Source: Beroe forskalii
Lineage: Eukaryota > Ctenophora > Nuda > Beroida > Beroidae
NCBI GenBank assembly: GCA_011033025.1
Contig: WFMF01000612.1
Location: 26,046-90,045 of the forward strand
Reading direction: 5' to 3'
Length of the DNA: 64,000 bases
Shown here: positions 17,443 to 63,402 of the stretch, one piece after another
Numbering within the stretch: the stretch's first letter is position 1
Layout: every line of letters begins with the position of its first letter
Position numbers and translations under genes: made by a program
The notes under the pieces: model-generated
Seen by the model: only the letters and a program-made list of their open reading frames with translations
What the model was told of the DNA's origin: nothing
Database searches by the model: none

Positions 17443-17835
17443 CCCTCAGGACTCATGACCAATCTCGTAAAAACTTAATGTTGCATCAGTGAGTTATGCG
17501 CCGCCTGGACTCCACTGTTAAACAGTGTCGAAGACTTTGTCCCCTTTCCTTGAAAGTGACGGGAGGACCTATAACAGTTCCGTGGTTTGATTGTACCAAT
17601 TCCCCATCCCCCAAGCCATGATAATGATGGCTGCACTCTCAACTCTAATGATTGTATTGGAGACCTTTAGGACACCTTGTATCGCTTGTATCACAGTTAA
17701 CTACTTATTATTGGTGGTTTGTACCGGTGCGTGTACAGCTTACAGACTGTATAATGTATATAATGTATTAATCCTTTCAATACTAAGTGTTTATCAAGCT
17801 CTTTGTGGATGGTGTGATGTCCCAGTGAGTATGGG

Positions 17836-18290
17836 AATTGGAGTGTGGTGAAGTCGTGAATATGGGGATTGGTGTACCAGTGAAGTCGTAAATATGGGGA
17901 TTGGTGTACCAGTGAAGTGAATATGGGGATTGGTGTACCAGTGAAGTGAATATGGGGATTGGTGTACCAGTGAAGTCGTGAATATGGGGATTGGTGTACC
18001 AGTGAAGTCGTGAATATGGGGATTGGTGTACCAGTGAAGTCGTGAATATGGGGATTGGTGTACCAATACCAGTGAAGTCGTGAATATGGGGATTGGTGTA
18101 CCAGTGAAGTCGTGAATATGGGGATTGGTGTACCAGTGAAGTCGTGAATATGGGGATTGGTGTACCAGTGAAGTCGTGAATATGGGGATTGGTGTACCAG
18201 TGAAGTCGTGAATATGGGGATTGGTGTACCAGAGAAGTCGTGAATATTCAGGGAATTGGTGTACCAGTGAAGTCGTGAATATCCAGGGCT
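17836..18290. repeat. 32-bp minisatellite
   Basis: About 14 units of a 32-bp repeat containing GTGTACCAGTGAAGTCGTGA and ATATGGGGATT. Two early units lack about 5 bp (the CGT segment), and one has an ACCAAT insertion near 18064. Since 32 is not a multiple of 3, a frame on the minus strand passes through all three readings of the unit without a stop. The 170-codon open frame there (17794-18306) is a by-product of the repeat and not good evidence of a gene. Confidence 0.9.
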
Positions 18291-18718
18291 TTGGGTGTGG
18301 TGTCACAGTGAATAATGTGGAGTGGGGTGTGGTAAAGCCTTTAATCTCTCATCTTTAGCTCTCCTGCACTCAGGATATACATTAGACTCATTCTGGCCTC
18401 GTTTGTGCGATTATGTGTGAATTTATGGCTCCACTCCATGCATATAATGCCTACCGCAGGAAAATTATATGTATTGCGCAGCGTGTATTGTGCAAAGACG
18501 CAGTTTTCGTAAAGTTTGCCCCCTATTTCACCTAATTTTCCTTCCGAGCATGTAGATCACTGAGGGTTGCTATGAGGAACACACATGATAGTAATTTGCT
18601 GTACGAAATGTACTACACGCAGTTTAGCCTGCCTCTTCCTACGACTACAGTAGCTCATAGTCTTGTCTGGTGATCCAGTGAGTCTAATTACGTTGTCTAA
18701 ATGTGCACGAACAATCCA

Positions 18719-33325: not shown

Positions 33326-34256
33326 TATTTGCGCTCTGGACGAATATTTGCACTCTGGGTGTATATTTGCGCTCTGGGCGCATATTTGCGCTCTGGGTGC
33401 ATATTTGCATTCTGAGCGCATATTTGCGCGTTTGGCGCAGCGCATATTGATATTTGCGCTCTGGGCGCATATTTGCGCTCTGGATGCAATTTTGCGCTCT
33501 GGGCGCATATTATTATTTGCGCTCTGGATGCAATTTTGCGCTCTGGGCGCATATTATTATTTGCGCTCTGGGCGCATATTTGAGCTCTAGGTGCATATTT
33601 GCGCTCTGAGCGCATATATGCGCTCTAGGTGCATATTTGCGCTCTGGGCGCATATATGCGGTCTAGACGCATATATGCGCTCTAGGCGCATATTTGCGCT
33701 CTGGGCGCATATTTGCGCTCTGTGCGCATATTTGCGCTCTGTGCGCATATTTGCGCTCTGGGCGCATATTTGCGCTCTGGGCGTATATATGCGCTCTGGG
33801 CGCATATATTCATATCAATATGCGCTCTGGGCGCATATATCAATATGCGCTCTAGGCGCATATTTGCGCTCTGGGGGCATATTTGCGCTCTGGGGGCATA
33901 TTTGCGCTCTGGGCGCATGTTTGCGCTCTGGGCGCATATTTGCGCTCTGGGCGCATATTTGCGCTCTGGGCGCATATTTGCGCTCTGGGCGCATATTTGC
34001 GCTCTGGGCGCATATTTGCGCTCTGGGCGCATATTTGCGCTCTGGGCGCATATATGCGCCCTAGACGCATATTTGCGCTCTGGGCGCATATATGCGCCCT
34101 AGACGCATATTTGCGCTCTGGGCGCATGCCCATATATGCGCTCTAGGCGCATATATGCGCTCTGGGCGCATATTTGCGCTTTTGGCGCATATTTTCGCTC
34201 TGGGCGCATATTTGCGCTTTGAGCGCATATTTTAATTTCGCTTTGGGCGCATATTT
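33326..34256. repeat. 19-bp minisatellite, about 48 units
   Basis: The unit is 19 bp, consensus TTTGCGCTCTGGGCGCATA. Edges are degenerate (CACTCTGGGTGT, GCTTTGAGC) and the centre (33880-34050) is almost perfect. Because the unit has no stop codon in several frames and 19 is not a multiple of 3, long open frames of up to 157 codons run through both strands. They look like repeat by-products. The unit contains two GCGC/GGCGC CpG motifs, so the array carries many methylatable CpGs. It directly adjoins the CpG-rich foldback block. Confidence 0.95.
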
Positions 34257-50085: not shown

Positions 50086-51588
50086 CTACGAAATGAAAGG
50101 TCTACTCATGATACTCTGTTGCTTGGTATCACACAACACCCCCACATCTCTCACACTAACCAACTCCTTACACATCAGCTGCTTTACCAACGTGCTCTTC
50201 ATCTCAAACTCAAACCACAGCTTGCTCAAACCCACTGGTGCCGTTACCCAGTCCACGTTCTCAAACTCACACTCGAACAAGACCAGGGGCAGGTCCGAGG
50301 CCATCCCGTAGTTGTATTTTACACCCGAGGCAAGCATCCCTGATATGACTTGAGGGGATTCGAGTCCAAGTCCTATCCGGAATAGGACACAAACCATGTT
50401 CCTGATTTGGTGCCAGAGAAACGCATGTCCGAGGATGGTGAAGGAGTAAACGGAAAGGGCCGGATAATCCTTGTTTTCAGAAACTAAGTCTATGGAAAGA
50501 TAGGTAACAGTTCGGTTGAAGTTAGGCTCCTCCAAAGTCCTATCTGCCTTACAAAACGCTCTGAAGTTGTGTTCGCCCAGGAAGCGATCCACTGCGCCCC
50601 GCATGGCCTCAATGTTCAAGTCACACTGCGGGAAGTAGTACTTATACGACCGGTACAACACCTGGAAGCGAGCATCGAACTCGAGGCCCACGGGCGCCCA
50701 GGCGAGGACTCTGATGTGTGGGGGCAGGACGTTGTTTATCATGGTGATGTAGTCGTACTCCTCAGCCACTTTACGGCTAGACGGCGTGTCATCGTGTGGT
50801 GGCTCATCGCCGTCTGAGTTAGCCACCTTAGATCGGAGGTACAACGACACCACCTGGGGCAGGATTACACAGATTGATGAAAGCTTTAAAATACATAACA
50901 CAGATTTCTATTGACTCGCATGGTGAATGGAAATACAAGTGTGTGTCTACTCGAATAATCGGAAATAAGCTCCCTAGCCTCTATTCATTGACTCTTTTAA
51001 TTGAATTATATTTTGCTACTACATTGTGAAAGATCACAGAGTTACATGTTCTTATTTGAGTATTTTTTTATTGACTTGTTACTGTAAACTACGTTTTTAA
51101 AACCCTTATAGTGGTGCTCTTGGGAGTTTTCAAGTTTTCGACCGATCAAGGAAACAAACCTGAGAGAAAGCGGAGACGCCCTTGTCAGTCCTACCACACC
51201 GCGTTATCTTGTAGTCCTTGGCAGAGTAGATCAGACAGCACCGTTCACACCCCTGCAGCAACACTTCCTCCACAGTGTCCGGCGTGTTGATCTGCCGGGC
51301 CAGACCGTTGTATTCCCAGCCCAGATACGCCACTTTCAGAGCAACGTTTCGGAGGGTGGACTTGGAGAATATTTCCTTGCGTTTCGCTTGTTTTGCTTGC
51401 TTGGCTGCTTCCTGTTTGGAGTTAACCTTTTCTCGCTTCTTCTCGTTAAGAGAAAGCTCGGTGAGGATTGTTGGTAGGATTTTGACAGGGTCAGCTGATT
51501 TGAGGGTAACGGCGGGTAAACCAGAGACAGTTAACACTAGGGTGGTGTCTTGTTCTTCTATCTCGTAACCAGTATAAATCAATATATT
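50086..51588 (-). CDS. PUS3: PUS3, tRNA pseudouridine(38/39) synthase (5' exon uncertain)
   Basis: Two secure minus-strand exons, 51588-51160 and 50853-50086, join in phase 0 and give about 398 residues. The enzyme family converts U38/U39 in the tRNA anticodon stem to pseudouridine. Seen here: RNVALKVAYLGWEYNGLARQ at the domain start, the catalytic motif RCGRTDKGVSAFSQ with its nucleophile Asp, LRSK after the splice, the INNVLPPHIRVLAWAPV block, FDARFQVLYRSYKYYFP, HNFRAFCK and HAFLWHQIRNMVCVLFRIG, all in TruA/PUS3 order. It ends soon after a SRPF motif, so it lacks the long tail of human PUS3 (481 residues). The N-terminal extension is Lys/Ala-rich (EAAKQAKQAKRKE). The acceptor at 51588 is strong (TCCCTCTATTACAG). 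An upstream exon ending at 51712 likely precedes it, but its frame is unclear; an ATG at 51618 is an alternative start. Confidence 0.88.
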
Positions 51589-51711
51589 CTGTAATAGAGG
51601 GATGGAGATAATTTTCATGAGTCACACTATCATTCCTATCAAATTCATGATAATTTCATTTCACTCACCCGCTCATTCAATTCTCACATGCAAGCACCAG
51701 CCCCCCTCTCT

Positions 51712-54015: not shown

Positions 54016-54888
54016 TAGTGATAAGCGGACGCCTATAACCATATCATGCTCTTTGCTTCAAGGATCTTGCCACCAGACTTCACTAAAATATTATTTTACA
54101 TGCATAATACAACGCAGATATAAAGTTCCAAAGTTCTCGTGTGAAGACTGAGTGTATCGTGATTGGATAGTTGCCTCCAGTATTATATCACTGAAGCGTG
54201 GATTTTACATAATATTCCAATTCTTTTTAATCGTTTACGTTTATTTATAACTCGGTTCAAAGATGATTTTGGTAATTTTCACCCAATCGTTTTGTATTTA
54301 GTCGCCTCTTTGAGTTTTGACAAACCCGCATCAGTCTGTATGAAAATCACTTCAGTAAAAGTGATAAAAGTGATTGCAGTTCTCATTTCTCAGATTGGTG
54401 CCAAATTATTTCTTCAATTTAATTTGTCAAGTTAGATACAGCAAGGATGTGGCATCTAACATCTTATCATTGAGTCTGCAGACTTTGAGTATCTTCTTAT
54501 CTAGCGTTTTGAAAACAGTCTTACGTATTCATACATTCAATTAGTGCAGTGCAAGATAAGGCAGAACCACCGATACCGTATTTACTGCTATAGCGACTAG
54601 TTTGTCTAGCCAGTCCATGAAATATCATAAATATTGAATTACATTACTCAACACACCATGTCCTTGTCACTGCACGGCCCATTGGAGCGAGTGCCTTTCA
54701 TTGAACTGAACTTTGTGTTTTAGAATGACTTTTACTAGTATCGTTCAAACTTCAAAGATTCGCAGGAAAAACTTTATTTTATTTTTCCAAATTTTTCTTC
54801 ATTTTCCTTAATTCTCCTGTAAACTTGTAAATAGTCTTAAATGCCTTTTGTCTAACTGTCTAACTCCTCATATCGTGTCAGGAATGCA

Positions 54889-57800
54889 ATGAGGCTGGAA
54901 CGCAAGGTTCTGAGTTTGCTTTTAGTACTGGTAGTTGCTACTAAAGTTGAAGGAGCGTGTAAGGAAACAGGCCTAACGGACTGGGAAGAGTTTGTGTTGG
55001 AGGAACACAACAAACTGAGGAGACAGCACGCTGACACACCAGACTTGTGTTATGCTGAAAGTGGGGGCGATGTTACGTTTACAGCCCAATCGTGGGCGGA
55101 AGAGTTGGCAGCAACAGGGATGTTTAGACACAGTAGCGGAGGGAAATACGGGGAAAATATAGCTTACAAGAGCACCAGTGGGGTGCTGCCAGATAGGATA
55201 GCAGCTTACAACATCTCCATACACAAGTTAGTTCGATATATTGGTGAATTTAGGTCTTCTTAGTTGAGAAATATTTTTTTTCTGTGTCGCATCGAACAGG
55301 ATGACAGCAAATTGAGCCAAGATCAAGTTATTATTCAATGTTTGAATTCAATCTGACTGTATCGATAGATTTCAGTACCAAAGATCTTTCTTCGTTTTCA
55401 TTAGGAATTTAAGGCCACTGACCTCTTTAATCGGAGTCTAACCGCACACTATCTGTCAGGTGGTACAGTGAAGTAGGAGGATGGAACTTCCAAACCAGCA
55501 GTGCGTGTCAAGGCAAGATAACCTCTCACTTCACCGCAATGGTGTGGAAAGAGACCACCCAGCTGAACTGCGGACACGCCACCAACCTCATCAACTCCAT
55601 GAACAAGTACTTTGTGGTGTGCCAGTACTTTGTGAGGGGTAACTTTGGGGGAGCTGAGGACTATGAGAAACAAGTAGGGCAGCCTCTAGTGAACGTTAAC
55701 AGCTGTGTTCCAGACTCACAGAATGAGGATAAGTCTGACGTAGGGGATGACAAGGAAACTGATGCACAAACTGATGAGGAAAGTGAGACCCTGAAATCTG
55801 GGTGTAAAACGGAAGGATTCACGGACTGGGAAGAGTTTGTGTTGGAGGAACACAACAAACTGAGAAGACAGCACGCTGACACACCAGACTTGTGTTATGC
55901 TGAAAGTGGGGACGATGTTACGTTTACAGCCCAATCGTGGGCAGAAGAGTTGGCAGCAACAGGGATGTTTAGACACAGTAGCGGAGGGAAATACGGGGAA
56001 AATATAGCTTACAAGAGCACCAGTGGGGTGCTGCCAGATAGGATAGCAGCTTACGACATCTCCATACACAAGTTAGTGAGTTATGTTAGGTAACTTACAT
56101 CCCAATAAGTTCAGAAATGGTCTTACATATGGCATATCAAGCAGGACCATTACAAATTATGCTAAAAAAGTTCGATGTATTTGAATTTCATCTGACTGTC
56201 ATTATGTGGCCATACATTTAATTACCAAAAGTTCGTTGACGGTTTGATTTGGACTCTAAGGCCACTGTAAACCTAACTTAACCGCACAATATCTGTCAGG
56301 TGGTACAGTGAAGTAGGAGGATGGAACTTCCAAACCAGCAGTGCGTGTCAAGGCAAGATAACCTCTCACTTCACCGCAATGGTGTGGAAAGAGACCACCC
56401 AGCTGAACTGCGGACACGCCATCAACCTCATCAACTCCATGAACAAGTACTTTGTGGTGTGCCAGTACTTTGTGAGGGGTAACTTTGGGGGAGCTGAGGA
56501 CTATGAGAAACAAGTAGGGCAGCCTCTAGTGAACGTTAACAGCTGTGTTCCAGCCTCACAGAATGAGGATAAGTCTGAGGTAGGGGATGACAAGGAAACT
56601 GATACACAAACTGATGAGGAAAGTGAGACCCTGAAATCTGGGTGTAAAACGGAAGGGCTCACGAACTGGGAAGAGTTTGTGTTGGAGGAACACAACAAAC
56701 TGAGAAGACAGCACGCTGACACACCAGACTTGTGTTATGCTGAAAGTGGGGACGATGTTACGTTTACAGCCCAGTCCTGGGCAGAAGAGTTGGCAGCAAC
56801 AGGGATGTTTAGACACAGTAGCGGAGGGAAATACGGGGAAAATATAGCTTACAAGAGCACCAGTGGGGTGCTGCCAGATAGGATAGCAGCTTACAACATC
56901 TCCATACACAAGTTAGTGAAGTTATGTTGGTGAATTAAGAGCTCTGTTAGTTGAGAAATGGTTTTGCATTTGATTCATCAACCAGCTCTGAAATTATTTG
57001 ATATCTGTTAACACCTGACCATATAGATAGATTTTAGGATTTTTCCCGATTTCATTTGGACTCCAAGACCACTTTAAACGTCATCTAACTGCACACTATC
57101 TGTCAGGTGGTACAGTGAAGTAGGAGGATGGAACTTCCAAACCAGCAGCGCGTGTCAAGGCAAGATAACCTCTCACTTCACCGCAATGGTGTGGAAAGAG
57201 ACCACCCAGCTGAACTGCGGACACGCCACCAACCTCATCAACTCCATGAACAAGTACTTTGTGGTGTGCCAGTACTTTGTGAGGGGTAACTTTGGGGGAG
57301 CTGAGGACTATGAGAAACAAGTAGGGCAGCCTCTAGTGAACGTTAACAGCTGTGTTCCAGACTCACAGAATGAGGATAAGTCTGAGGTAGGGGATGACAA
57401 GGAAACTGATACACAAACTGATGAGGAAAGTGAGACCCTGAAATCTGGGTGTAAAACGGAAGGACTTACGAACTGGGAAGAGTTTGTGTTGGAGGAACAC
57501 AACAAACTGAGAAGACAGCACGCTGGCACACCAGACTTGTGTTATGCTGGAAGTGGGGACGATGTTACGTTTACAGCCCAATCCTGGGCAGAAGAGTTGG
57601 CAGCAACAGGGATGTTTAGACACAGTAGCGGAGGGAAATACGGGGAAAATATAGCTTACAAGAGCACCAGTGGGGTGCTGCCAGATAGGATAGCAGCTTA
57701 CAACATCTCCATACACAAGTTAGTGAAGTTATGTTAGTGAATTTAGAGCTCTGTTAGTTGAGAAATGGTTTTGCATTCAACGCATCAACCAGCTCTGAAA

Positions 57801-60744
57801 TTATTTGATATCTGTTAACACCTGACCATATAGATAGATTTTAGGATTTTATCCGATTTCATTTGGACTCCAAGACCACTTTAAACGTCATCTAACTGCA
57901 CCCTATCTGTCAGGTGGTACAGTGAAGTAGGAGGATGGAACTTCCAAACCAGCAGCGCTTGTCAAGGCAAGATAACCTCTCACTTCACCGCAATGGTGTG
58001 GAAAGAGACCACCCAGCTGAACTGCGGACACGCCACCAACCTCATCAACTCCATGAACAAGTACTTTGTGGTGTGCCAGTACTTTGTGAGGGGTAACTTT
58101 GGGGGAGCTGAGGACTATGAGAAACAAGTAGGGCAGCCTCTAGTGAACGTTAACAGCTGTGTTCCAGCCTCACAGAATGAGGATAAGTCTGAGGTAGGGG
58201 ATGACAAGGAAACTGATACACAAACTGATGAGGAAAGTGAGACCCTGAAATCTGGGTGTAAAACGGAAGGACTCACGGACTGGGAAGAGTTTGTGTTGGA
58301 GGAACACAACAAACTGAGAAGACAGCACGCTGACACACCAGACTTGTGTTATGCTGAAAGTGGGGACGATGTTACGTTTACAGCCCAATCCTGGGCAGAA
58401 GAGTTGGCAGCAACAGGGATGTTTAGACACAGTAGCGGAGGGAAATACGGGGAAAATATAGCTTACAAGAGCACCAGTGGGGTGCTGCCAGATAGGATAG
58501 CAGCTTACAACATCTCCATACACAAGTTAGTGAGTTATGTTAGTTAATTTATAGCTCTGTTAGTTGAGAAATGTTATTTTAGGCTCTTTAAGTTGAAAAA
58601 TGTTTCTGCCTTTTTCGTATCAAAAGGAACAATTAAGAATTCAGTTCAGCTCAGCAATTATGTAATTATTCAATGTTTGTATTCCTGATTTCAGCTGACT
58701 CTATCGAAGGATTTTATTATCAACAGATCTTTCCCCATCTTATCAGTAATTTAATTACACTTTAAAGGTCATCTAACAGCACACTATCTGTCAGGTGGTA
58801 CAGTGAAGTAGGAGGATGGAACTTCCAAACCAGCAGCGCGTGTCAAGGCAAGATAACCTCTCACTTCACCGCAATGGTGTGGAAAGAGACCACCCAGCTG
58901 AACTGCGGACACGCCACCAACCTCATCAACTCCATGAACAAGTACTTTGTGGTGTGCCAGTACTTTGTGAGGGGTAACTTTGGGGGAGCTGAGGACTATG
59001 AGAAACAAGTAGGGCAGCCTCTAGTGAACGTTAACAGCTGTGTTCCAGCCTCACAGAATGAGGATAAGTCTGAGGTAGGGGATGACAAGGAAACTGATAC
59101 ACAAACTGATGAGGAAAGTGAGACCCTGAAATCTGGGTGTAAAACGGAAGGACTCACGGACTGGGAAGAGTTTGTGTTGGAGGAACACAACAAACTGAGA
59201 AGACAGCACGCTGACACACCAGACTTGTGTTATGCTGAAAGTGGGGACGATGTTACGTTTACAGCCCAATCCTGGGCAGAAGAGTTGGCAGCAACAGGGA
59301 TGTTTAGACACAGTAGCGGAGGGAAATACGGGGAAAATATAGCTTACAAGAGCACCAGTGGGGTGCTGCCAGATAGGATAGCAGCTTACAACATCTCAAT
59401 ACACAAGTTAGTGAGTTATGTTAGGGAATTTAGAGCTCTGGAAGTTGGGAAATTGTTTAGCATTTGTCACATCAAACAGGATGATAACAAGTTCAGCTAG
59501 AAAGCTAGGAAAAATGTATCAAATTCACTTGACTGTGTGGATAGACTTAAGTACAAAATAACAAAAGGTATTAGGTATCTCCTGATTTGCCTGGAATTTA
59601 TTAAGGACACTTTAAACTTATAAACTTTTAAACGGAGTTTCCCGGTTTTATTTGGAATTTAAGACCACTTTAAAGGTCATCTAACTGCACTCTATCTGTC
59701 AGGTGGTACAGTGAAGTAGGAGGATGGAACTTCCAAACCAGCAGCGCGTGTCAAGGCAAGATAACCTCTCACTTCACCGCAATGGTGTGGAAAGAGACCA
59801 CCCAGCTGAACTGCGGACACGCCACCAACCTCATCAACTCCATGAACAAGTACTTTGTGGTGTGCCAGTACTTTGTGAGGGGTAACTTTGGGGGAGCTGA
59901 GGACTATGAGAAACAAGTAGGGCAGCCTCTAGTGAACCTTAACAGCTGTGTTCCACAGAATGAGGATAAGTCCGATTCAGAAAGTGAGACTGATTCTAAT
60001 GAGGAGAACATATCCAAATCTGATGATGAGAGTGATTCTGAATTACCAGACATAGAACTTGAAGAGGATTCCGACACGGATACTAGCACTGCGACAGATG
60101 TTCAAGACAAAGACACACCTGAAGATGAATCAGAATCTAAGGAATTGGATGAAGATGAAAAGGTTCCCGAGGATAAAAGCGAGGACTTGTCAAAAGATGA
60201 AGCAAAGGACTCTACTGATGACACCTCCAGCTCGTCAGAACCAGAGGAAATTACAGCTTGTGACTGCTGGTCTCCAACTTGTGGGTATTGTGATGATACT
60301 CGGTGTGCAGTGCGGTACAACATGTCCTCATCTGACCGAGGCATCACCGCCAGGTCCCATCTCTCCTGGTCTCATCTCAACTCTGTGGTATTGTACAATG
60401 AGCAGGGCTACAGAATAGGGAGATTCAGGTTTTCATTGTCTCGGATTTATCTCACTGGATGCATGGCTTACCGGACCAGGAAGGTCTTCTGGCAATTCCG
60501 AGGCCGAAAACATCACAAAACGGAATGGAAGTTGAACTTCCGCCATAGTGTTCTCCATCTTTACATCGAGGATGTTCAGGTGTTCAGACAGAAACTGATA
60601 GGGGAGTGTGCGACGCACTACAGAGACATTCAGTACTTCGCTTTCTCGAACACGAGGTGTCAGAAAACGTTCACACTTCTGGAGGGGATGGAAAGAGGAG
60701 AGAAGATTACAGATTCTTGTGAGGGGAGATGCCCGGCGAATTAG
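54889..60744 (+). CDS. Secreted polyprotein with six tandem CAP (SCP/TAPS) domains
   Basis: Seven exons: 54889-55226, 55460-56071, 56300-56911, 57107-57718, 57914-58525, 58795-59406 and 59703-60744. Each intron uses AA/GTTAGT and TGTCAG/G in phase 2, so all join in frame to about 1,479 residues. A signal peptide (1-22) precedes CAP1. Exons 2-6 are each 612 bp and carry the C-half of one CAP, an acidic linker (QNEDKSEVGDDKETD type) and the N-half of the next. The CAP tetrad is intact in each domain (CAP1: H81, E89, E117, H136). CAP signatures are SHFTAMVWKET and VVCQYFVRGNFGG. After CAP6 come about 100 Asp/Glu/Ser-rich residues and a Cys-containing domain (ACDCWSPTCGYCDDTRC onward) that I cannot assign. 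CAP proteins are extracellular, often lipid- or sterol-binding. The start was chosen at the ATG just upstream of a perfect signal peptide, after a TGTCAG acceptor. Confidence 0.85.
55460..59406 (+). repeat. Tandem duplication of a 612-bp CAP exon (five copies)
   Basis: Exon-start spacing is 840, 807, 807, 881 bp, then 908 bp to the final exon. All five exons are exactly 612 bp and nearly identical at the nucleotide level. Introns 3 (56912-57106) and 4 (57719-57913) are both 195 bp and almost the same sequence, while the others (233, 228, 269, 296 bp) have diverged outside their ends. The duplicated unit is therefore exon plus intron, with the 3/4 pair youngest or most recently converted. Confidence 0.9.
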
Positions 60745-62727: not shown

Positions 62728-63402
62728 ATGACTGCAAGAGCTGGTCTCTTCCTCTTGTTCGGCTGTCTGACACTGCACAGTGTCCTTGGCGTCTGTAAGA
62801 CAGGGGCTCTGACAGCAGATGAACAGGCTGTGCTAGATGAGCACAACAAACTCCGGAAGCAGCATCAGGACACCCCTGAGATGTGCTATGCTGAGAGTGG
62901 GGATGACGTGACCTTCACTTCTCAAGCCTGGGCTGAAGACATGGCAACAATGGGGGAGTTCAAGCACAGCAAACCTGGAGATTATGGAGAAAACATTGCC
63001 TATAAGAGCACTTCAGGAGACCTCCCAGACATCCAGGGGGCATACAAAACCTCAACCAACAACTGGTACAACGAAATCAAGGATTGGAACTTCGCCACTA
63101 ACAAAGGGTGTGCTGAAAAGGTCACATCTCATTTCACTCAACTGGTATGGAAAGCAGCAGTTCAACTCAATTGTGGTCATGCCACAGCAATTGTCGATAC
63201 CATGAAGAAGTACTACATTGTGTGTCAGTACTTTGCTAAAGGCAACTTTGGTGGCCCTGATGATTATGAAGCACAAGTTGGGAATCCAGTTGAAGGCTAC
63301 ACAGTAGATGCTAATGATTGCAACCATTCTTTTCCTGTTACTTACAATTTCCTCCTTTACCTGGCAACCTTTAGCCTGCTTTTTTGTATAACTTTTGAAT
63401 GA
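62728..63402 (+). CDS. Single-CAP-domain secreted or membrane-anchored protein
   Basis: One uninterrupted coding exon of 224 residues. A signal peptide (MTARAGLFLLFGCLTLHSVLG) leads into a CAP domain very similar to those of the polyprotein: DEHNKLRKQHQDTPEMCYAE, YGENIAYKSTSGDLPD, WYNEIKDWNF, TSHFTQLVWK and IVCQYFAKGNFGG. The tetrad His (FKHSK), Glu (YGEN), Glu (WYNE) and His (SHFT) is present, as are the six cysteines of the module. After the domain, a short linker ends in a hydrophobic segment (NFLLYLATFSLLFCITF), suggesting a GPI or tail anchor. I chose the ATG at 62728 because it begins the signal peptide and follows an AG acceptor. In the polyprotein the domain is split by an intron just before the WY motif; here it is not. 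AATAAA lies at 63542. Confidence 0.9.
   Translation: MTARAGLFLLFGCLTLHSVLGVCKTGALTADEQAVLDEHNKLRKQHQDTPEMCYAESGDDVTFTSQAWAEDMATMGEFKHSKPGDYGENIAYKSTSGDLPDIQGAYKTSTNNWYNEIKDWNFATNKGCAEKVTSHFTQLVWKAAVQLNCGHATAIVDTMKKYYIVCQYFAKGNFGGPDDYEAQVGNPVEGYTVDANDCNHSFPVTYNFLLYLATFSLLFCITFE

Follow-up and report, generated by a model that had tools for sequence, protein, structure and literature searches.

On the plus strand of a 64,000-nucleotide genomic window from the ctenophore Beroe forskalii, positions 54889-60744 are predicted with high confidence to hold a single gene whose product strings together six near-identical CAP domains, each of them encoded in two halves on successive exons. The window, by which we mean the whole stretch analysed, corresponds to positions 26046-90045 of contig C706, its end being the contig end, and the genome searched was an assembly of 216 Mb in 1,134 contigs. 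The explanation that we favour overall, with moderate confidence, is that of one intact and probably secreted gene in which old duplications were followed by homogenization of the exons, and whose product would serve as a multivalent binder.

Structure of the six-CAP gene and its protein

The repeat is visible in the DNA as six occurrences of a 300-nt direct repeat spaced 807-908 nt apart, and in seven consecutive stop-to-stop frames, the last of which is the longest. The gene model comprises seven exons (338, 612, 612, 612, 612, 612 and 1042 nt) and six phase-2 introns, and codes for 1,479 residues followed by a stop; the exon-intron joins read ATACACAA/GTTAGT and TATCTGTCAG/GTGGTACAG. Its features, together with a neighbouring gene, are as follows:

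54889..55226, plus strand: exon 1, signal-peptide-like start (residues 1-22, by eye), N-half of CAP 1 from 54958, ending in phase 2
55227..55459, plus strand: intron 1, phase 2, GTTAGT...CAG
55460..56071, plus strand: exon 2 (612 nt), C-half of CAP 1 (to 55712), acidic linker (55713-55802), N-half of CAP 2
56072..56299, plus strand: intron 2, phase 2
56300..56911, plus strand: exon 3 (612 nt), C-half of CAP 2, acidic linker, N-half of CAP 3
56912..57106, plus strand: intron 3, phase 2, 95% identical to intron 4 (youngest duplication)
57107..57718, plus strand: exon 4 (612 nt), C-half of CAP 3, acidic linker, N-half of CAP 4
57719..57913, plus strand: intron 4, phase 2, genome-wide DNA matches confined to the six-CAP gene
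57914..58525, plus strand: exon 5 (612 nt), C-half of CAP 4, acidic linker, N-half of CAP 5
58526..58794, plus strand: intron 5, phase 2
58795..59406, plus strand: exon 6 (612 nt), C-half of CAP 5, acidic linker, N-half of CAP 6
59407..59702, plus strand: intron 6, phase 2, genome-wide DNA matches confined to the six-CAP gene
59703..60744, plus strand: exon 7, C-half of CAP 6 (to 59955), acidic spacer (59956-60258), cysteine-rich domain (60259-60741), stop
60259..60741, plus strand: C-terminal domain, no Pfam match, weak galectin/LG-like beta-sandwich model
62728..63402, plus strand: single-CAP gene, intronless, 224 residues, hydrophobic C-terminal tail by eye

All six introns begin with GTTAGT, end with TATCTGTCAG and carry TAAC at -21, that is, 21 nt before the exon. 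Across the window GTTAGT is found at 21 of 3,756 GT sites, and 51 of 3,501 AG sites have CTAAC within the branch range; since both signals are this scarce, chance does not account for six pairs of them in the same position, with the qualification that six signal sets in related copies are not six independent proofs. A competing GTGAGT donor is situated 4 nt into introns 2, 5 and 6, and by arithmetic its use would break the frame. That five internal exons all measure 612 nt and are 98.4-99.7% identical is far beyond chance. We are highly confident in the exon-intron structure, the splicing being predicted from the DNA. Just 5' of the start codon (window 54830-54889) there is an acceptor-like CTAAC...TGTCAG that resembles the signals of the internal introns and could be the end of a 5' UTR intron or a trans-splice site.

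Members of the CAP superfamily share an alpha-beta-alpha sandwich with an H-E-E-H tetrad in its cavity, and the eukaryotic members are secreted. A profile search of the spliced chain with Pfam PF00188 recovered six stretches (E=3.2e-56; 189.6 bits against a curated cut-off of 21.1), which are predicted to adopt the CAP fold. Each domain is 174 residues long, pairs of domains differ at 1-6 places (96.6-99.4% identity), and all six possess the H, E, E, H tetrad, six cysteines and an aromatic WYxExxxWxF stretch. Within each tetrad the intron separates the leading H-E residues from the trailing E-H residues, so that every metal site is completed only by splicing; the tetrad places were set by alignment with Pry1 and GAPR-1, together with the Pry1 tetrad named in PMC4921858. 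Across the join the spliced domain fits the uninterrupted single-CAP gene at 62728-63402 without a gap, at about 60-61% identity, which indicates that each N-half pairs with the following C-half. The initial annotation had described seven phase-2-linked exons coding for about 1,479 residues and six near-identical CAP domains with intact tetrads, with a repeated exon made of the C-half of one domain and the N-half of the next, so that every domain is completed by splicing. Its coordinates, exon count, phase and length were all reproduced, the profile search returned the same number of domains, and the gapless fit bears out the straddling exon. When the exon-2 peptide was modelled alone, in view of a possible permuted domain, the pLDDT was 33.5.

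Separate CAP genes can lie in tandem, as do 16 in Lucilia cuprina (PMC7694928), and a separate single-CAP gene sits downstream of the six-CAP gene, both of which would suit a reading of the locus as several single-CAP genes. However, a signal-peptide-like start precedes the first N-half only, the other five N-halves being preceded by an acidic linker; the frame is unbroken between each later N-half and the C-half before it; and exon 7 alone runs on into a tail. We consider separate genes exceedingly improbable. The translation of the one long gene starts with a hydrophobic, signal-peptide-like segment (by eye), and its product is probably secreted.

The five acidic linkers are 30 residues each with a net charge of -8 or -9, and the whole chain is strongly acidic (net -98). 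The last CAP domain is followed by a 101-residue acidic spacer (net -36) and then by a 161-residue domain with ten cysteines and a net charge of +10, which has relatives on five other contigs of the genome and perhaps holds the chain in place. The initial annotation had passed over this domain. The profile search gave no Pfam family for this domain, and of two sequence searches against the PDB one returned a single match at E 0.37 and the other none up to E 10. Its structural model resembles a galectin or laminin-G-like beta-sandwich, a fold match too weak to give the domain a name. The CRISP subfamily of CAP proteins is marked by a C-terminal cysteine-rich CRISP/ion-channel-regulator domain; that family is absent from the six Pfam matches up to E=1, though absence from this list is not proof. 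One of these six matches, A_thal_3526, scored 27.9 bits against a cut-off of 27.8 on the six-CAP chain and four more families fell below theirs; all five were dismissed as summed chance, because no single stretch passes for any of them.

Probable exon homogenization and the proposed origin of the straddling exon

The ten pairwise comparisons among exons 2-6 gave 98.4-99.7% identity, with 2-10 differences over 609 bases and 1-2 over 75-79 fourfold sites. The introns, in contrast, share 65-78% of their aligned bases in 14 of 15 pairs (22-35% differ), the exception being introns 3 and 4, which differ at 9 of 195 bases (95% identity). Fisher tests of the fourfold sites against the two flanking introns yielded p values of 1.4e-9 to 1.4e-3 per exon pair, the ten pairs sharing sequences and hence being non-independent. 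The change is sharp at the exon edge, with 3-4% differences in the last 20 exon bases versus 27-32% in the first 20 intron bases, where such ungapped counts are inflated by indels; the copies are likewise similar over the final 20 bases of the intron, ahead of the acceptor (8% differences). Domain 1 is the most distinct, its silent differences from the others amounting to 5-8% as against 1-4% among the rest, and this fits an end copy that has been homogenized less. In a tree of the introns, 3 and 4 are joined at a support of 0.964 and all other support is at most 0.22, so that the tree gives no order for the older duplications.

The divergence of the introns beside exons of 98.4-99.7% identity implies an early date for most duplications and a later one for the homogenization of the exons, and we regard such an old duplication followed by exon-confined homogenization as probable from these comparisons. 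The earlier proposal that the gene was built by exon duplication is thus supported as far as it goes and is incomplete in leaving out the later homogenization of old copies. Gene conversion is the usual agent of repeat homogenization and is most likely the agent here as well; conversion was possibly templated by spliced cDNA, for which the same pattern as for ordinary gene conversion would be expected. A second allele or a retrocopy of the exon was discarded, as a genome-wide DNA search with exon 2 matched seven places, every one of them inside the six-CAP gene. The introns were similarly rejected as a dispersed insertion family: introns 4 and 6, the two of the six searched, match the six-CAP gene only at the sensitivity of that search.

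Near-identical exons could also mean that all copies are young, the exon and intron having been amplified recently as a unit without homogenization, and at least one recent duplication is indeed indicated by introns 3 and 4, which are 95% identical where the unit spacing is exactly 807 nt. The other intron pairs differ at 22-35% of aligned bases, roughly ten times the silent divergence of exons 2-6, and a young age for all copies is strongly disfavoured and very unlikely in our estimate. Selection on silent sites, through splicing enhancers, codon choice or mRNA structure, would also be expected to produce conservation that stops sharply at the exon edge. However, whereas 39 of 985 fourfold comparisons among all six domains differ, a comparison of domain 1 with the neighbouring gene at 62728-63402 shows differences at 30 of the 40 comparable fourfold sites; silent sites in this CAP family are therefore free to change and not generally frozen, leaving such selection with a low probability, of about one order with that of uniformly young copies.

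An assembly effect, in which short-read polishing or consensus building overwrote real differences between the exons and spared the unique introns, is unlikely, if somewhat less so than the two preceding alternatives. Near-identity over 612 nt favours mis-mapped reads, and the distinct introns would anchor each copy. On the other hand, the copies retain private differences, including amino acids (1-6 of 174 residues per domain pair), and cross-mapping requires that the exons were very alike beforehand. False tandem copies are themselves unlikely given distinct introns of 195-296 nt, an argument that is weakest for the 3/4 pair.

Old duplication with later homogenization leaves the question of how an exon came to ignore the domain border, and for this we compared intron positions across the other CAP loci of the genome, of which the searches behind the count give at least 17. 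Three of 17 (on contigs C190, C35 and C967) have a phase-2 intron at TG/G of WYxE, splitting the W codon, 3 nt (one codon) downstream of the site of the six-CAP introns. The remaining 14 have no intron there: the neighbour gene, C211, C294, C241, C259, C269 (two), C425, C536, C636 (two), C167, C750 and C958. As the codon is different and 14 of 17 loci, including the closest relative, lack the intron, its common descent is no more than possible; either an old intron would have been lost often, or introns would have been gained nearby more than once, and the 3-nt offset fits both. The ancestor may have been a CAP gene with a phase-2 intron in mid-domain. Fusion of two such genes would have created a symmetric 2-2 exon composed of C-half, linker and N-half, which could then have multiplied in frame by unequal exchange; later exchange among the copies by gene conversion would have kept the exons, and not the introns, alike. 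Given a mid-domain phase-2 intron, the straddling exon is explained and no special mechanism is needed.

Relatives in the genome and known counterparts

Among the matches found, the gene at 62728-63402 is the closest relative of the six domains in the genome (about 61% identical) and is a tandem paralogue 2 kb downstream; it differs in being intronless, in having one domain and in carrying a hydrophobic tail in place of the acidic spacer and cysteine-rich domain. Open frames on C211 and C294 (L047:1947-3161, L048:1811-2863 (minus)), closely alike by eye, each hold two CAP domains and are free of introns. The two halves of the C211 frame are 41% identical to each other and 26-28% identical to domain 5, and these tandems are only distantly related to the six-CAP gene. 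A further two-CAP locus on C425 (L049) has its second domain continuing in a different reading frame. On C241 (L022) a CAP frame is followed by repeats in another frame that resemble sushi/CCP modules by eye, and on C958, C167 and C750 (L023, L026, L029) CAP lies near the start of long frames (702, 570 and 625 residues); by eye, two of the three seem to carry a membrane-spanning stretch near the end.

Elsewhere in the window, a tRNA pseudouridine synthase gene lies at 50089-51621 on the minus strand: PF01416 matches the frame 50092-50907 (E=9.3e-23), and the frame 51136-51621, which has no Pfam match, looks like its upstream exon. Regions 17700-18348 and 33591-34099 contain long open frames of short tandem repeats in several frames at once and are probably simple tandem arrays, not genes. 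The mitochondrial contig C1134 (13,339 bases) encodes a COX1 with four in-frame TGA codons and, amid respiratory genes named by eye, two long frames of 368 and 313 residues; a stretch of it seemingly occurs twice (L045:4311-4694 and L046:647-1753), with the same start of a long unidentified frame. An ATP6 profile found no match on this contig, its single match in the genome being a 92-residue frame on C176 (profile positions 135-217, the end of the profile), and ARAGORN, with bacterial settings, found no tRNA genes in either piece of C1134. Missing mitochondrial tRNAs and ATP6 (the latter nuclear) and unidentified frames are described as ctenophore traits in PMC6991124, and by these features the genome is very likely that of a ctenophore.

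Sterol-binding CAP proteins of the Pry1 type possess a flexible aromatic loop, the caveolin-binding motif. The best solved relative of the chain by sequence is yeast Pry1 itself (PDB 5ete/5jys; E=3.8e-18), which shares the H-E-E-H tetrad. Its WYNEISNYDF aligns with WYSEVGGWNF, a likeness that is read from the sequence alignment and may coincide with the caveolin-binding motif. As described in PMC4921858, the Pry1 CAP domain binds cholesterol in a Mg2+-dependent manner, and its dimerization brings the metal and sterol sites together. Pry1 differs in having one CAP domain, in being a dimer in solution (PMC4921858) and in that an acidic tail with a cysteine-rich C-terminal domain is not reported in the available part of that paper.

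Covalent linkage of several CAP domains in one chain is shared with Na-ASP-1, with other tandem-CAP proteins and with A0A2V0P999 of the alga Raphidocelis subcapitata, which has eight (PMC10189770); they are set beside the Beroe protein by domain count alone, the latter having six domains of 96.6-99.4% identity and straddling exons. Six CAP domains in one protein, which the initial annotation had called unusual, are thus uncommon but not unprecedented. In JAG1, too, exons 5 and 6 are out of phase with the tandem domains (PMC2725086), and in VERL, an abalone egg-coat protein, concerted evolution maintains the similarity of tandem repeats 3-22 (PMC2704960); both belong to other domain families without CAP, and neither is described with both features in the available parts of these two papers. 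By its sequence, the six-CAP gene is a member of the CAP superfamily with an uncommon architecture, not a new kind. That architecture combines near-identical domains, six in number, with an exon that straddles them, probable homogenization confined to the exons, and a tail domain without a Pfam or solved-structure name. No description of a six-CAP protein was seen among the matches listed in the open-access literature. Among the papers listed there on CAP proteins in ctenophores, ctenophores are mentioned at most once per paper, and the Mnemiopsis genome paper (PMC11797021) is without the terms sought.

Proposed function and implications

Once spliced, each domain would keep the H-E-E-H metal site and the aromatic WYxExxxWxF stretch, as in the sterol-binding Pry1, and the chain could act outside the cell as a multivalent binder, its ligand being perhaps a lipid, a sterol or a surface. 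Concatenated CAP domains have been taken to suggest a stoichiometric and not a catalytic role (PMC10189770), and this argument, together with sterol binding by Pry1, leads us to take a multivalent secreted binder as most likely. Avidity for a lipid, a sterol or a surface is a plausible guess by homology; a lipid or sterol as the actual ligand is a tentative one. About as likely is a structural or defensive function (mucus, egg coat, toxin-like or immune) instead of lipid binding, the repeats providing mass or cross-linking. In cnidarians, CAP proteins are found in nematocysts and venoms, where structural as well as toxic roles have been suggested for them (PMC3627010), VERL offers an egg-coat precedent for homogenized repeats (PMC2704960), and the chain is strongly acidic. 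Retention of the tetrad and aromatic stretch in all six domains speaks against a structural or defensive role, although homogenization alone would keep them. A long shot, to which we give a small probability, is a six-valent extracellular lipid/sterol scaffold that would be tethered by a new cysteine-rich beta-sandwich domain, its units kept alike by exon-confined, possibly cDNA-templated, exchange.

The six-CAP gene is an uncluttered natural example of a domain tandem produced from an exon whose limits disregard those of the domains. Its six diverged introns provide a built-in clock against the near-identical exons, making homogenization measurable within one gene. If the binding guess is true, some CAP domains would work by number and not by catalysis.
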